Shown here one piece after another: positions 20,801 to 45,031 of a stretch of DNA of 64,000 nt (its first letter is position 1; each line of letters begins with the position of its first letter). The DNA is from Desulfuromonadales bacterium (lineage in GTDB: Bacteria > Desulfobacterota > Desulfuromonadia > Geobacterales > Pseudopelobacteraceae), in the NCBI GenBank assembly GCA_016650295.1, contig JAENWA010000069.1, positions 1-64,000 of the forward strand, given 5' to 3'. The notes under the pieces were generated by a model that was not told where the DNA came from, made no database searches, and worked only from the letters and a program-made list of their open reading frames with translations. The translations under genes were made by a program, and so were the position numbers.

Positions 20801-21308
20801 AGATTATCCTCCTTTTTATTTGTGAGCCAAATAAAGGACATGCGGTGCGTAGCGAGGCGGAGCCATCACATGTACTGGTGTTGAACTAAACCGCTTGGGC
20901 ACCTTTCTTGGATTTTCATCCGGTTTTTTGGTTTTTTGGTTTTTTGGCGTGAGGCGTGAGGCGTGAGGCGTGAGTCGTGAGTCGTGTGGAAGTATCCCGG
21001 TCAACACGGAGGAGTCAAAATATTTATGCGTTTGTATGGAAAGGGTAATCATGACCCGGTTCCTCGCATGAAGCTTGAAGAATTTTAACAGAAACCGGCG
21101 GGGTGTCAAGGGGGAATTGCTGTAGCTTAAAAAGGCAGGTTGATCTACTTCGTAAGTCATGTATAGATTACGTCACGAAGTGGCTGATGCACGGTAGACC
21201 GGCGTTTCAACGCCGGGATTAATGCAGATTTATTCATTCCGTCACGTACGTGACGTAGGGAATTTGTTGGGCATTCAAGAATCCGTGGGATAAATCCCAC
21301 GGCTACCA
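20801..21308. other. Intergenic stretch with low-complexity and inverted repeats
   Basis: No credible gene. It holds TTTTTTGG triplets and a run of GGCGTGA/GTCGTGA seven-base units (about 20945-20988), CCGGCGTT/AACGCCGG near 21199, a 16-base perfect palindrome CGTCACGTACGTGACG (21240-21255) and CCGTGGGA/TCCCACGG (21283-21302), the last beside the next gene's stop. Confidence 0.6.
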
Positions 21309-22202
21309 TCAAACGCCCCTCTGGGGCTCCAGTCCCTTCTCCCTCATGAACGCTTTAAAGGCCCCATCCGGCGGAGCCGTGACGCGGATTTCCACTGCCC
21401 GCTCATCCTTGAATACCAAAGACGCGCAGTGCAGCATCATCCGCACTGCCGGCGCCCCGCCATAGGTAGCATCCCCGACAATCGGCAGTCCGGAGGCCTC
21501 CAGGTGGACGCGAATCTGGTGGGTACGGCCGGTCTGGGGACGCGCCTCCACCAGTGAAAAATCACCCGACGTGGAGAGCAGGCGGAATTCGGTCAGGGCC
21601 GTGCGCCCTTCGGCCATGACACCATATCGTGAGGTCCCAACCTTGCCGATCGGGCCGTCAACGCTCCAGACATCCTGGCCCGGCCGACCGCTGACCAGCG
21701 CCAGATAAACTTTGTCCACCGCCCCGTCGTGAAAACGCTTGGAGAGCCAGGCGGCGGCCTGCTTGTGCTTCGGGAACAGCATGACACCCGAGGTGCCGCG
21801 ATCCAGACGATGGATGACCCGGGCCGGCTCATTGCTGCCTTGGTGGCGGAAATATTCGGAGACCCAGTATTCCAGCGTCCCCTTGAGCTGATAGGGGGTG
21901 CGCTGGGTGTTGATGCCAGCCGGCTTGTTGACCGCGATCAGCGCCTTATCTTCATATAACAGGGCCTCGGGCAACAGGATCAGTTCCCGGAAGCGACCCG
22001 CCTCCATTATCCCGGCCTCGATGATATCCCCGGCCTTGATCATTCGCGAGGCGACCCGCACCATGGCGCTGTTGACAGCACAGCCGCCCCGGTCGATGAT
22101 CCGCCGCGCCTCCGACTTGCTGAGCGCCTCGAAGAGTATGCTCATGGTCTCGTCCAGACGACGCCCGCCCTGTTCCGCTGTGACTGTTTTTCTGAGTATC
22201 AT
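21309..22202 (-). CDS. RluA/RluD-family pseudouridine synthase
   Basis: 297 aa RNA pseudouridine synthase with an N-terminal S4 RNA-binding domain (GGRRLDETMSILFEALSKSE through about residue 70). The catalytic motif HRLDRGTSGVMLF carries the nucleophilic Asp, preceded by IAVNKPAGINTQ and followed by ARPQTGRTHQIRVHL, all family signatures. Acts on 23S rRNA or tRNA uridines; the site cannot be read from sequence. ATG at 22202. Confidence 0.87.
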   Translation of the reverse strand: MILRKTVTAEQGGRRLDETMSILFEALSKSEARRIIDRGGCAVNSAMVRVASRMIKAGDIIEAGIMEAGRFRELILLPEALLYEDKALIAVNKPAGINTQRTPYQLKGTLEYWVSEYFRHQGSNEPARVIHRLDRGTSGVMLFPKHKQAAAWLSKRFHDGAVDKVYLALVSGRPGQDVWSVDGPIGKVGTSRYGVMAEGRTALTEFRLLSTSGDFSLVEARPQTGRTHQIRVHLEASGLPIVGDATYGGAPAVRMMLHCASLVFKDERAVEIRVTAPPDGAFKAFMREKGLEPQRGV

Positions 22203-40122: not shown

Positions 40123-40455
40123 TCGTTCATTCCCCACATATTCCCTCTTGAAAAGCACTGTCACTTACTGAACATCAATACTTCAATCTATGCAAAATAG
40201 CCCAGATCAGTCAGATAATTCAAGCAGAATAACAAATCCGCTCGACGTCTGGAGGATTCGACAACCCCGAAGTTCTGATGAGTGCTACCGTCAAAAAATT
40301 CCCGAGAAATTCACCCAGCCATTCCGCTATTCCACGGCTTATAGTTCGGTTATACGACCAGTTATATTTTAATTAAAAATGCAACACACTGAAAAGATAA
40401 TATTAATTAAATGGTTTGTTTTTTGCATAAACCCTTAATCATTAAATATTTGTTC

Positions 40456-40535
40456 CGTCCATGGTAACCCTATCGAGAGGTAGGCACACAAAGCCACAGG
40501 TCCTGGTTTAAAAAAAGGACAGCTGGGCTACCGGA
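40456..40535 (+). ncRNA. GEMM-class riboswitch aptamer (c-di-GMP or 3',3'-cGAMP)
   Basis: Features of the GEMM-I consensus occur in order: GGTAACC, the stem CCTA..TAGG capped by a CGAGAG-type GNRA tetraloop (40469-40484), the invariant ACACAAAGCCACAGGTCC with GCCACAGG, a second stem closed by GGACAGCTGGGCTACCG, and the flanking stem GTCC/GGAC. Geobacter relatives use such elements to sense c-di-GMP or cGAMP; I could not safely assign the specificity position. The terminator 70 bases on is the likely expression platform, controlling the following four genes. Confidence 0.85.
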
Positions 40536-40603
40536 CATAATCTGGGCGGGACTTCTGTGCATTTCTTTATTTTTAAAAATTCTGGATGCGACTAATTTAA
40601 CTG

Positions 40604-40646
40604 ACCGGCAGTGCGGATATGTTCCGTGCGCCGGTTTTTTGTTTTT
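40604..40646 (+). terminator. Riboswitch expression-platform terminator
   Basis: ACCGGC with GTGCGGA (40604-40617) pairs with TCCGTGC and GCCGGT through 40635 using two G-U pairs, loop TATGT, then TTTTTTGTTTTT. Located between the GEMM aptamer and the first gene, so readthrough would be ligand-controlled. Confidence 0.8.
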
Positions 40647-40694
40647 CTGGAGCGTATGTAATTTAACGAAATAAAAAATGAAAGGGAGGAAAGT

Positions 40695-41486
40695 ATGAGT
40701 AATTTATTTAAGCGCTTGTTTGTGACTGGGGCAATGGCTGCAATGTTGACTGTAGCGATTCCGCTGTTCGCAGCAGGAGTACCAACGATACTTAGCTATC
40801 AAGGATTTTTAACTGACAGTTCTAGCCAGCCAATTACTGGTCAAAAGACTATCACTATTAATCTCTATTCTGTTCCTTCCGGAGGTACTTTTTTTTGGTC
40901 GGAAACGCAAACTGTGAATGTACGCAACGGTAACTTCGCTGTTGCGCTCGGGAATATCAATCCTCTCAATCCAACCCAATTCTCTAGCAACGTATACGTC
41001 GGTTTGACTTTAGGCTCAGATAGTGAAATGACTCCACGTCAAACTCTTGTTAGCGTGCCTTTTGCCTTTAACGCGAATAACGGAGTACCGCAGGGAGTAA
41101 TCGTTATGTGGAGTGGGGCGATTAACCAGATACCAAGCGGTTGGGCACTCTGCAATGGGACGGCTGGGACGCCTGATTTGAGGGATAGGTTTGTTGTTGG
41201 AGCAGGTAATACTTATATACCTGGAACAACAGGAGGAAATACAACTATCAACTTGCAACATGGCCACATAATCAATGACCACACACACTCTGGAACTACA
41301 GGTTCTTCAAATTCAAATAAGAGTAGAAATGAAGGTAGCAGTTCAAGCTTTACTCTCCCAGAGACAGCACATGGCCATAGTTTTACAACCGGTGGCGCAA
41401 GTGATAGAGGTACCAGCAGCAGTCTTAGTACTGCACAAGATGTCCGTCCTCCTTACTATGCCTTGGCCTATATAATGAAGCTCTAG
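40695..41486 (+). CDS. Secreted protein with phage tail-collar-like domain
   Basis: 263 aa. Signal peptide MSNLFKRLFVTGAMAAMLTV followed by AIPLFAAG; residues about 28-130 are a beta-rich domain (ILSYQGFLTDSSSQPITGQK). From about 134 a collar-type fold appears: GVIVMWSGAINQIPSGWALC, then NGTAGTPDLRDRFVVGAG, and the C-terminal RPPYYALAYIMKL. Histidine pairs (QHGHIINDHTH, ETAHGHSF) could bind metal, as in tail collars. First gene after the GEMM riboswitch; SD GGGAGGAAAG. Exported structural or adhesive role inferred. Confidence 0.75.
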   Translation: MSNLFKRLFVTGAMAAMLTVAIPLFAAGVPTILSYQGFLTDSSSQPITGQKTITINLYSVPSGGTFFWSETQTVNVRNGNFAVALGNINPLNPTQFSSNVYVGLTLGSDSEMTPRQTLVSVPFAFNANNGVPQGVIVMWSGAINQIPSGWALCNGTAGTPDLRDRFVVGAGNTYIPGTTGGNTTINLQHGHIINDHTHSGTTGSSNSNKSRNEGSSSSFTLPETAHGHSFTTGGASDRGTSSSLSTAQDVRPPYYALAYIMKL

Positions 41487-41505
41487 CCACACACGGAGAG
41501 TAAAA

Positions 41506-43593
41506 ATGAAAATATTTTTATTTGTATTGATGTTTATTCTTAGTGTGCTCTTTTATTCCCTGACAGGAGCGAATGATTATGGAACGATGGCGAGTAACAA
41601 TTATCAAATCTTCCTTGCTGATATGAGCATAGCCGAAAGTGGTGCCAATGGGACTAGTTTAGAGCTAGTATTTTCTTTGATGACCCCATATCAAGAAGTT
41701 TTCGCAACTGACAATTCCGGGAATTCTTTGACGACTCCGCATTACTTTATTATATCTGTTCCCGGCGCACCGACAATCGGGACGGCCACAGTCGGCGATA
41801 CCCAGGCCACGGTTACCTTCACGACTCCAGACTCCAACGGTGGCAGTGCTATTACCAACTACTCGGTGACTTCCAATCCTGGCAATTTCACCGCTACTGG
41901 TACCGGCAGCCCGTTAACCGTTACCGGCTTGACCAACGGCACCGCCTATACCTTCACTGTGACAGCAACCAATGCTGTTGGCACTGGTTTGCAGTCAATA
42001 TCATCAAATAGTGTGACACCTATCGGCACCCAGTCAATCACCTTCCCGTCACTGACGGCAAAGAGTTACGGGGTTGGAGATTTCGATCCCGGGGCTACGG
42101 CAAGTTCAGGACTCGCGGTAACATACACCAGCTCAAACCCAGCGGTGGCAACCATGTTGGCAGGAAAAATCCATGTTGTCGGCGTCGGTTCCACGACCAT
42201 AACTGCCAGCCAAGCTGGCAATACCAGTTTCACCGCAGCAACGGACGTAACACAGAGTTTGACTGTAAACCCGGCGACACTCACGGTGACGGCAAGCTAC
42301 AAAAGCAAGACCTACGGAGCATCAAACCCCGCTTTAACCATAGCCTATTCCGGATTTGTCAACAGCGATACGGCGGCAAGCCTTACGACACAGCCGGTTG
42401 TAGCAACGACGGCCACGATGTCAAGTGCAGTCGGCAGCTATCCAATCACCGTCAGTGGTGGAGTGAGCAGCAATTACACCTTTACCTGTATTCCCGGAAC
42501 CCTGTCTGTCACCCAGGCAACCTTGACGGTGACGGCGAACGGTACCAGCAGAATTTATGGAGTTGCAAACCCGGCATTCACACTTTCCTATTCCGGGTTT
42601 GTCAACGGTGACACGGCAGCAAGCCTTACAAGTCAGCCAACCGCCACGACAACGGCAACGACGGCTAGCTCGGCGGGTAGTTATCCAATCACCGTCAGTA
42701 GTGGAGCAAGCAGCAACTACAGTTTTACCTACGTTTCGGGCACTCTGACTGTAAACACCATAAATCTTACCGTAACAGCGAATAATGCCAGCAGATCCTA
42801 CGGGACAGCCAATCCGGCATTCACACTTTCCTATTCCGGCTTTGTCAACGGCGACACTGCTGCAAGCCTGACAAGTCAGCCGACCGCTGCAACGGCGGCA
42901 ACATCGTCCAGCCCGGTCGGCAGCTATCCGATCACCGTCAGCGGCGGAGCAAGCAGCAACTACAGTTTTACCTACGTTTCGGGCACTCTGACTGTAAACA
43001 CCATAAATCTTGCCGTAACAGCGAACAATGCCAGTAGATCCTATGGGACAGCCAATCCGGCATTCACACTTTCCTATTCCGGCTTTGTCAACGGCGACAC
43101 TGCTGCAAGCCTGACAAGTCAGCCGACCGCCACTACGACCGCAACAATGTCCAGCCAGATCGGAAGCTATCCGATCACCGTCAGCGGCGGAGTGAGCGGC
43201 AACTACAGTTTCACTTACGTTTCAGGCGCTCTGACTGTAAACACCAAAAATCTTACCGTAACAGCGAACAATGCCAGTAGATCCTATGGGACAGCCAATC
43301 CGGCATTCACACTTTCCTATTCCGGCTTTGTCAACGGCGACACTGCTGCAAGCCTTACAAGCCAGCCGACCGCCACTACGACCGCAACAATGTCCAGCCA
43401 GATCGGAAGCTATTCGATCACTGTCAGCGGCGGAGTGAGCGGCAACTACAGCTTCTCTTATGTTTCAGGCACCCTGAGCATAAATTCCGGCGGCGAAGGT
43501 GGAGGTACTCAAGTCCCTGTCATGGATGGTTGGTGGCTGCTGCCGGGGATGTTGGCCGGTTTGGGTATGTTTGCCCGTAGAAGGAAAGAGTAA
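41506..43593 (+). CDS. Surface protein with fibronectin type III and MBG repeats and C-terminal exosortase signal
   Basis: 695 aa. Signal peptide MKIFLFVLMFILSVLFYSLTG; residues about 85-170 form an Fn3 domain (GAPTIGTATVGDTQATVTF); 175-255 a bacterial Ig-like domain; then five MBG-type repeats, the last four with an 81-residue (243-base) period and nearly identical DNA (each starting LTVTANNASRSYGTANPAF or similar). The C-terminus is GGEGGGTQVPVMDGWWLLPG followed by a hydrophobic stretch and ARRRKE: a tripartite sorting signal with an unusual VPVMDGWW box in place of PEP or IPTLxxWG. Adjacent to its probable exosortase. Likely outer-surface or matrix component. Confidence 0.85.
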   Translation: MKIFLFVLMFILSVLFYSLTGANDYGTMASNNYQIFLADMSIAESGANGTSLELVFSLMTPYQEVFATDNSGNSLTTPHYFIISVPGAPTIGTATVGDTQATVTFTTPDSNGGSAITNYSVTSNPGNFTATGTGSPLTVTGLTNGTAYTFTVTATNAVGTGLQSISSNSVTPIGTQSITFPSLTAKSYGVGDFDPGATASSGLAVTYTSSNPAVATMLAGKIHVVGVGSTTITASQAGNTSFTAATDVTQSLTVNPATLTVTASYKSKTYGASNPALTIAYSGFVNSDTAASLTTQPVVATTATMSSAVGSYPITVSGGVSSNYTFTCIPGTLSVTQATLTVTANGTSRIYGVANPAFTLSYSGFVNGDTAASLTSQPTATTTATTASSAGSYPITVSSGASSNYSFTYVSGTLTVNTINLTVTANNASRSYGTANPAFTLSYSGFVNGDTAASLTSQPTAATAATSSSPVGSYPITVSGGASSNYSFTYVSGTLTVNTINLAVTANNASRSYGTANPAFTLSYSGFVNGDTAASLTSQPTATTTATMSSQIGSYPITVSGGVSGNYSFTYVSGALTVNTKNLTVTANNASRSYGTANPAFTLSYSGFVNGDTAASLTSQPTATTTATMSSQIGSYSITVSGGVSGNYSFSYVSGTLSINSGGEGGGTQVPVMDGWWLLPGMLAGLGMFARRRKE
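42520..43490 (+). repeat. 243-bp tandem coding repeats
   Basis: Four in-frame copies starting near 42520, 42763, 43006 and 43249 within the MBG protein. Copies 2-4 are almost identical at DNA level, so copy number could change by recombination or slippage. Confidence 0.9.
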
Positions 43594-43597
43594 CCCT

Positions 43598-44185
43598 TTG
43601 GCAAAAAAGAAGAGAAAGGTTAATTCAGAACAAATCCACGTAGAGCAGCCGATGCAAAAAGAAGCCGGGGCGAGCAATCGCCCCGGCTCTTCCCTTGTCA
43701 AAACCTGCATTCTGTTTGCCGTGATCCTTGCCGGACTTCACGCCTTCACCTGGCTCTTCGCGCTCAAGGGATATATCCAGTGGGGAAACGGCACGGCACA
43801 GATTGTTTCCACCATCCTCAATACCATGGGGATACAGAATATTGTTGACCGCAACATTATCTGCCTTCACAACGATACCTGGAACGTCACCTCCGAATGT
43901 ACCGCTGTCAATGCAGTATTTCTGTTTGTCTCCTTTGTCCTGGCCTATTCGTCGGAATTCAAATCAAAAGCCATAGGAGTCGCAACGGGAATACCGCTCA
44001 TACTAACAATCAACATAATCCGGCTTGTTGTGCTGGGATGGGTGACGGAATACTGGCCCAAGCATGCCCATCTCTTCCATGATTATGTCTGGGAGACTAT
44101 CTTTATCTTCTTTATCATTTCCCTCTGGTTCGTATGGATTAATCTGGTGGTGAGTCGTGAAAAAAATATTGCCGTTTCTTGCTAG
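43598..44185 (+). CDS. Exosortase (XrtH-like)
   Basis: 195 aa membrane cysteine transpeptidase predicted to cleave the sorting signal of the preceding protein. Hydrophobic segments surround the catalytic triad: Cys101 in SECTAVNAV, Arg142 in NIIRLVVLG and His161 in LFHDYVWET, the exosortase Cys-Arg-His set. TTG start at 43598 follows GGAAAGAG eight bases upstream; the basic N-terminus AKKKRK is cytosolic. The 695-aa protein ends four bases earlier. XrtH subtype suggested by neighbour and target type, not proven. Confidence 0.8.
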   Translation: MAKKKRKVNSEQIHVEQPMQKEAGASNRPGSSLVKTCILFAVILAGLHAFTWLFALKGYIQWGNGTAQIVSTILNTMGIQNIVDRNIICLHNDTWNVTSECTAVNAVFLFVSFVLAYSSEFKSKAIGVATGIPLILTINIIRLVVLGWVTEYWPKHAHLFHDYVWETIFIFFIISLWFVWINLVVSREKNIAVSC

Positions 44186-44618
44186 GCTGCTCGTCATTTC
44201 CCTGCTGTTTGTACCAGTCTTGCCATATTTCCATCAATCCTACAAATTCGTTCTGACACTCATTACAACCGAAAGCATGCCGACAAGCGAGATGATGAAC
44301 TCTCTCCCCTATGATGGCTCAAACAACCTCTACACTTATCTGGTGCTCATCTTGGCGATACCTGGGATGGAGATTAAGAAGAGGGTTATTGGTATTGTCA
44401 CGGGGATCGCACTGTTCCTTTTTGTTGATTTCTTCATGATGGCGATTTGGATTCCTTACCTGAAAACACCCCGGCCATCCCTGGCAAACATGGCTGTATC
44501 GTATGGGTGGCTGGTTGTGGCCCATTACCTGCTGCCGTTTCTGCTCTGGCTTGCGTTTGCCTTCAGGCAGATCGAGGGATTATTCAGAGGCGGGACATCC
44601 GTTGAGCAAACCGGTTAA
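44157..44618 (+). CDS. Exosortase-associated small membrane protein
   Basis: 153 aa with about four hydrophobic segments (LLVISLLFVPVLPYF, LYTYLVLILAIPGM, GIVTGIALFLFVDFFMM, LVVAHYLLPFLLWLAFAF). GTG start at 44157, overlapping the exosortase 3' end by 29 bases, so translation is coupled. Similar small membrane proteins accompany exosortase H, as I recall. Its role, perhaps assembly or substrate handover, is inferred. End of the riboswitch-controlled operon. Confidence 0.65.
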   Translation: MKKILPFLARLLVISLLFVPVLPYFHQSYKFVLTLITTESMPTSEMMNSLPYDGSNNLYTYLVLILAIPGMEIKKRVIGIVTGIALFLFVDFFMMAIWIPYLKTPRPSLANMAVSYGWLVVAHYLLPFLLWLAFAFRQIEGLFRGGTSVEQTG

Positions 44619-44951: not shown

Positions 44952-45031
44952 GAAAAGGGGATCATGCATTTACGAAGCCGTCTTCCGACTGTATCGTAGA
45001 GGCCCCTTTTCATCCGGAGAAGGGTTTTTTT
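44952..45031 (+). promoter_or_regulatory. Alternative terminator/antiterminator structure
   Basis: CCCTTTTC (45004-45011) can pair either with GAGAAGGG (45017-45024), making a terminator followed by seven T, or, together with the preceding C, with GAAAAGGGG (44952-44960) in a longer stem enclosing TTACGA...TCGTA. The two are mutually exclusive, as in riboswitch platforms. Confidence 0.65.

Follow-up and report, generated by a model that had tools for sequence, protein, structure and literature searches.

The GEMM-Ib riboswitches known from Geobacter activate their genes (PMC6456294, PMC9262584), and changing A20 to G renders such a switch responsive to cyclic di-GMP (c-di-GMP), a change that has been used to build a c-di-GMP reporter in this genus (PMC6456294). 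Among the described designs, Cd1 is an OFF switch in which aptamer and terminator are separate stems, and the pilM ON switch has a terminator that includes the 3' strand of the aptamer (PMC9262584). In Methylophaga nitratireducenticrescens, a 2025 report describes c-di-GMP riboswitches at four places next to genes of the PEP-CTERM or VPLPA-CTERM type, so a coupling of c-di-GMP to exosortase substrates has a precedent (PMC12530212). Here we compare with these systems a riboswitch-headed exosortase operon on the plus strand of a 64-kb stretch of contig JAENWA010000069.1 from a Desulfuromonadales bacterium (the whole 64,000-nucleotide stretch is called the window).

We consider it probable that this locus is a doubly gated surface-display operon, in which sigma-54 and a c-di-GMP riboswitch together control a substrate, an exosortase, and a membrane partner. 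The original prediction for this DNA had recognized a GEMM-type aptamer and a terminator ahead of co-directional substrate and exosortase genes, and these parts of it held. It missed a putative sigma-54-type promoter, an upstream motif shared with related genomes, and a second enzyme-substrate pair in the same genome.

The leader and its recurrence in related genomes

In the search of the whole window, Rfam places a c-di-GMP-I aptamer (RF03167, c-di-GMP-I-GGC) at 40454-40536 (+), scoring 59.9 bits (cut-off 59) with an E-value of 1.3e-11, and finds no other cyclic-dinucleotide riboswitch. Between the aptamer and the first gene lies an intrinsic terminator (40603-40641, +), formed by a stem at 40603-40636 (core -19.9 kcal/mol) followed by a U-run. 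This terminator is present in all four copies of the leader described below.

In the aptamer, we take G at 40463 and A at 40490 to be the published G20 and A47. We aligned ten aptamers from the window's genome and one from a relative. Three aptamers of this genome (the window's, L001, and L002) have G20, and the seven others aligned have A20 in a AAUACUAAAC context, as in cyclic GMP-AMP (cGAMP) riboswitches. At this place the window aptamer reads AUGGUAACC, which sets it outside GEMM-Ib. Because position 20 selects the ligand and is G here, c-di-GMP rather than cGAMP is the predicted ligand; the original prediction had allowed for either, and its c-di-GMP half is the one retained. A cGAMP ligand would agree with the majority of the genome's aligned aptamers, but it is highly improbable given G20 in the window and in the copies from the related genomes G053 and G032, and given that the top Rfam model is c-di-GMP-I-GGC.

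Upstream of the aptamer is a candidate sigma-54-type -24/-12 promoter, TGGTTTGTTTTTTGCA (40412-40427, +), which has the GG-N10-GC arrangement and matches 8 of the 11 positions scored (TGGCAC-N5-TTGCW with GG-N10-GC). Transcription is predicted to start near 40438, about 16 nucleotides before the aptamer. Sites at the same place in the related leaders match 11/11 and 9/11 positions (G053) and 8/11 (G032), and a match of at least 8/11 is expected in about 2% of shuffled 120-nucleotide leaders. Further upstream, the conserved motif CGGTTATNNNACCAG (40347-40361, +) is a candidate binding site for a sigma-54 activator. Its exact matches occur only in the window, L038 of G053, and L205 of G032, each upstream of a sigma-54-like site, and a version with one mismatch precedes the other unit of G053. 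Two relatives whose loci carry no aptamer (L043 and L044) have sigma-54-type sites (9/11 and 10/11) just before the substrate gene, and the exosortase operons of L040 and L041 have a neighboring gene for a response regulator that contains a sigma-54 activator domain. These patterns make sigma-54 control likely, and the promoter and shared upstream motif may constitute a second input besides the riboswitch.

Further copies of the leader cassette stand ahead of two G053 operons and a single G032 operon. All four leaders share the same order: CGGTTATNNNACCAG (with one mismatch in one copy), the GG-N10-GC element, the aptamer, a linker, and the terminator. The linker centers on GGGRCUUCUGUGC and has diverged in G032. 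In G053 (L244), two tandem operons with tail-bearing proteins are each headed by an aptamer, at 1038 and 5257. In the first, the gene for a tail-bearing protein is followed by an exosortase gene truncated to about 55 codons (L244:3796-5030), directly ahead of the second operon, whose exosortase is intact. In G032, the leader stands before genes for a beta-propeller protein with a tail and for another type of exosortase, 346 residues long. This protein (L205:1446-3813) resembles virginiamycin B lyase and has a sorting-like tail, and the exosortase that follows it belongs to no named subtype.

Because the cassette recurs at the start of operons in two related genomes, we regard the riboswitch-headed operon as a real regulated unit, made mostly of known kinds of part. 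What appears to be new is the leader cassette, found as it is before two G053 operons and before a different type of exosortase in G032. We are evenly poised on a broader proposal, that a portable cassette of activator site, sigma-54 promoter, c-di-GMP aptamer, and terminator has been set before different exosortase-substrate operons of the order, coupling display to c-di-GMP and a sigma-54 signal, and that the enzyme, its tail, and the partner encoded with a 29-nucleotide overlap make up an unnamed exosortase subtype.

For the survey for GEMM aptamers upstream of exosortase genes that had been suggested at the outset, we searched the upstream DNA (at most 9 kb) of 134 further exosortase genes from the order, together with ten loci of the exosortase subfamily found here (144 in total, including some short contigs in which the absence of an aptamer is uninformative). 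The search used a model built from the genome's own aptamers; version R1 recovered the known aptamers even though its RNAalifold structure lacked P3, and the complete structure was used for version R2. Same-strand aptamers were found upstream of 18 of the 144 loci, and an opposite-strand aptamer upstream of one. Many of the 18 are of the cGAMP type, and by heuristic picking of open reading frames about 11, the window included, have a plausible uninterrupted run. Riboswitch linkage to exosortase loci is thereby suggested as a recurring theme in the order. Searches of the open full text of PubMed Central turned up no paper in which exosortase and riboswitch are treated as one unit. The original prediction likewise knew of no described unit of this kind; the Methylophaga report partly anticipates it (PMC12530212).

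We also considered an aptamer subfamily exclusive to exosortase operons and rejected it, as several high-scoring relatives precede cytochrome-like or other secreted-protein genes. Two other loci showed unusual arrangements. In G123, a GEMM aptamer (L197:8676-8753) stops about 11 nucleotides short of where an exosortase gene probably begins, which suggests that this enzyme may be under direct translational control by its aptamer. In G131, four tandem GEMM aptamers (L175:9087-9747, minus strand) precede genes for a PEP-CTERM-like protein and exopolysaccharide-type functions.

Folding of the leader and the sign of the switch

In each of the three leaders folded (window, L038, and L205), the terminator is predicted with a probability near 1 at equilibrium, and aptamer and terminator are separate, coexisting stems. 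No conserved antiterminator was found in these single-sequence folds or in a consensus fold of the four cassette leaders. Both kinds of fold point to the conserved linker around GGGACUUCUGUGC (40545-40561, +) as an anti-aptamer element, with UGUGC pairing to GCACA of the aptamer core over 7 base pairs in L038, 9 in L205, and about 5 in the window. This ability of the linker to pair with the aptamer core argues that the switch is functional and not a relic.

Folding does not decide whether c-di-GMP raises or lowers expression of the operon, because the terminator is always predicted, the two stems are separate, and no conserved antiterminator is seen; on the same grounds, the earlier claim that a second messenger switches the operon on is unsupported. 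By analogy, the layout of the leader is nearer to that of Cd1 than to that of pilM, while the product and the genus speak for an ON switch. Both signs are compatible with the doubly gated operon. In an OFF switch, bound c-di-GMP would stabilize the aptamer, the terminator would form, and the operon would be made at low c-di-GMP. We rate this possibility only slightly short of even. The separate, coexisting stems resemble those of Cd1 (PMC9262584). In addition, base pairing is available between the P1 5' strand (UCCGU/C) and the 5' arm of the terminator (GCGGA), and the L038 fold shows it when the transcript reaches only as far as that arm; yet this pairing has only 5 base pairs against 12 in the terminator and is absent from the window and L205 folds. 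Matrix genes, moreover, are usually promoted by c-di-GMP and not repressed by it, which also speaks against an OFF switch. In an ON switch, c-di-GMP would raise read-through into the surface-protein and exosortase genes. The activating switches of Geobacter (PMC6456294, PMC9262584) and surface-protein products suited to a c-di-GMP-induced biofilm state favor this direction, but the window leader does not have the pilM-type overlap of the aptamer 3' strand with the terminator, and we hold it as a tentative reading that is plausible but below even.

The exosortase, its probable paired tail, and the rest of the operon

Four same-strand genes follow the terminator, at 40695-41486, 41506-43593, 43598-44185, and 44157-44618 (all +). 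Genes 1 and 2 are separated by 19 nucleotides and genes 2 and 3 by 4, and genes 3 and 4 overlap by 29 nucleotides, an overlap that is identical in all nine loci measured. The tight spacing noted originally is therefore borne out, except that a listed overlap of 95 nucleotides between exosortase and substrate is an artefact of a longer open reading frame read from an upstream GTG. The likely exosortase start is the TTG at 43598, 4 nucleotides past the substrate stop, because homologs begin with MAKKKRK there. An arrangement in which the riboswitch governs gene 1 or genes 1 and 2 only, and the exosortase and its partner have their own promoter, is unlikely. Many exosortases serve substrates encoded elsewhere, and enzyme and substrate lie apart in relatives such as G094, but such an arrangement fits poorly with the short gaps and the overlap, and a simple scan found no plus-strand sigma-70-like site inside the operon.

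Gene 3 encodes a short exosortase of 195 residues that scores well above the cut-offs of TIGR04178 (56.6 bits, cut-off 23) and PF09721 (43.4 bits, cut-off 25.7). The Cys-Arg-His residues expected of it are present as Cys98, Arg139, and His158 (numbered in A1, the gene 3 protein) and are invariant in 10 homologs. None of the named NCBIfam exosortase or archaeosortase subtypes reached its cut-off with gene 3; the best was archaeosortase B (ArtB; 87.3 of the 150 bits needed), with XrtX at 68.8 of 170 and XrtH at 50.3 of 86.

Gene 2 encodes a 695-residue protein with an fn3 domain and five MBG_2 repeats (Pfam), and is the predicted substrate. Its C-terminal tail, VPVMDGWWLLPGMLAGLGMFARRRKE (43513-43593, +), consists of a conserved motif, a membrane helix, and a basic end. 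No named NCBIfam CTERM model reaches its cut-off with this tail; the best is VPLPA-CTERM (14.1 bits for the window tail and 15.8 for that of a paralog, cut-off 25.35). Among 141 genomes from the order, nine have the gene 3-type exosortase and exactly these nine have the tail, with no tail in any enzyme-less genome of the set. Unlinked tails are the informative cases, because adjacent copies would co-occur anyway: in G094 the tail and the enzyme lie about 0.9 Mb apart, and in G063 a second tail is located on a different contig. Outside the order, G229 and G170 carry both enzyme and tail, with several tails in G170. This co-occurrence, which agrees with the pairing first proposed, is strong sequence-based evidence for a dedicated enzyme-tail pair outside every named NCBIfam subtype. 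That the tail is an ordinary membrane anchor, rather than a sorting signal read by the exosortase encoded next to it, would be in keeping with the sub-threshold CTERM scores and with cleavage being a prediction, but it is very unlikely in light of the conserved motif, helix, and basic end and of the identical genome sets, unlinked copies included.

The description of one enzyme with one apparent substrate applies to this locus but not to the genome, which encodes a pair of such enzymes sharing 76% identity, along with two tails; cross-processing between the two pairs is therefore possible. The paralogous operon (L037:5629-10104, G000:C114) comprises a tail-bearing substrate, an exosortase, and gene 4, and has no aptamer at E-values up to 1 and no sigma-54-like site. 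A terminator-like hairpin similar to the window's lies near L037:5525-5560.

Gene 4 (44157-44618, +), conserved in nine loci, encodes a small multi-helix membrane protein. Its structure model is mostly helical (pLDDT, the model confidence score, 82), with no database family match and no fold match, and neither this model nor that of the exosortase has a credible match among solved structures. We rejected the idea that gene 4 is a detached C-terminal domain of larger exosortases (about 350 residues), for which profile comparison with three C-termini only gave a probability of 0.3% and an E-value of 0.18. No relatives were found in viral contigs.

Gene 1 (40695-41486, +) encodes a putative secreted fibre-like protein with a MAT-like N-terminal part and a collar-like domain, both below cut-off. 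Its match to the MAT fibre model NF053851 has an E-value of 2.8e-7 and 30.5 bits (cut-off 60), with the resemblance lying in the first domain of these fibres. The collar-like stretch named in the original prediction is present, but its PF07484 (phage tail collar) score of 21.1 bits falls under the cut-off of 24. The N-terminus resembles that encoded by the opening gene of one G053 operon (E-value 1e-16), and this G053 equivalent has an endosialidase-type chaperone domain, typical of trimeric fibres. Downstream, a consensus scan marks a possible operon terminator at 45004-45031 (+), in a scan where terminator-like sites occur at about chance rate overall. Elsewhere in the window, an Acido-Lenti-1 small RNA matches at 21283-21328 (38.2 bits, cut-off 37).

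Proposed model and comparison with known systems

In the model we propose, RNA polymerase with sigma-54, driven by an enhancer-binding activator, would start the transcript near 40438. The c-di-GMP-I aptamer would be the first structured RNA made, and its state would bias the terminator at 40603-40641, so that c-di-GMP would set the number of transcripts entering the genes. The message would yield a secreted fibre-like protein and a repeat-containing, adhesin-like protein with a tail of motif, membrane helix, and basic end. We infer that the exosortase cuts this tail and transfers the protein to an anchor in the envelope, with the gene 4 product as its translationally coupled membrane partner. 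The sequence itself shows the class of the aptamer, the order of the genes, the family of the enzyme, the co-occurrence of enzyme and tail, and the recurrence of the cassette; the ligand, the use of sigma-54, cleavage, and the location at the surface are predictions.

Several observations weigh against this doubly gated operon. The RF03167 score of the aptamer is only 0.9 bit above cut-off, and in the predictions the terminator forms irrespective of the state of the aptamer. The window's sigma-54 site is weak alone (shuffle p 0.064 in 330 nucleotides), as it ranks with the weakest of those compared and does not reach significance by itself. In the survey, an opposite-strand gene lies between aptamer and exosortase in about 7 of the 18 loci, and the binomial P of 3.8e-5 for the strand difference is optimistic because related species are not independent and because of these interruptions. 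Finally, no aptamer could be detected at 8 of the 10 loci with an exosortase of the gene 3 subfamily, among them the paralogous locus of the window's genome; the riboswitch therefore does not belong to the enzyme system itself.

To our knowledge, little is understood of how exosortases act on their substrates and at what time. With a single enzyme, substrate, and partner and an input defined by sequence, the locus offers a compact setting for testing cleavage, anchoring, and signal control separately, and it puts forward an enzyme-tail pair that has no name and a clear-cut distribution across genomes.

Compared with c-di-GMP-I riboswitches (RF01051/RF03167), the window aptamer is alike in scoring above cut-off, in G20 and A47, and in its downstream terminator, but it stands at the start of an exosortase operon, downstream of a putative sigma-54-type promoter, and its leader has a conserved anti-aptamer element in the linker. 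The cGAMP riboswitches of the Geobacter GEMM-Ib group belong to the same clan, and several occur in the window's genome, but they have A at position 20 where the window aptamer has G. With the XrtH and archaeosortase B systems, the operon shares the Cys/Arg/His core, the tail plan of motif, helix, and basic end, and the pairing of enzyme and substrate; it differs in that gene 3 and the tail are below all named-subtype cut-offs and in having an extra membrane partner with a fixed 29-nucleotide overlap. The Methylophaga riboswitches are of the same ligand class and likewise lie next to exosortase-substrate genes, but the passages on them place the substrate genes near exopolysaccharide genes and mention no exosortase on the same message, and the tail types are different (PMC12530212).

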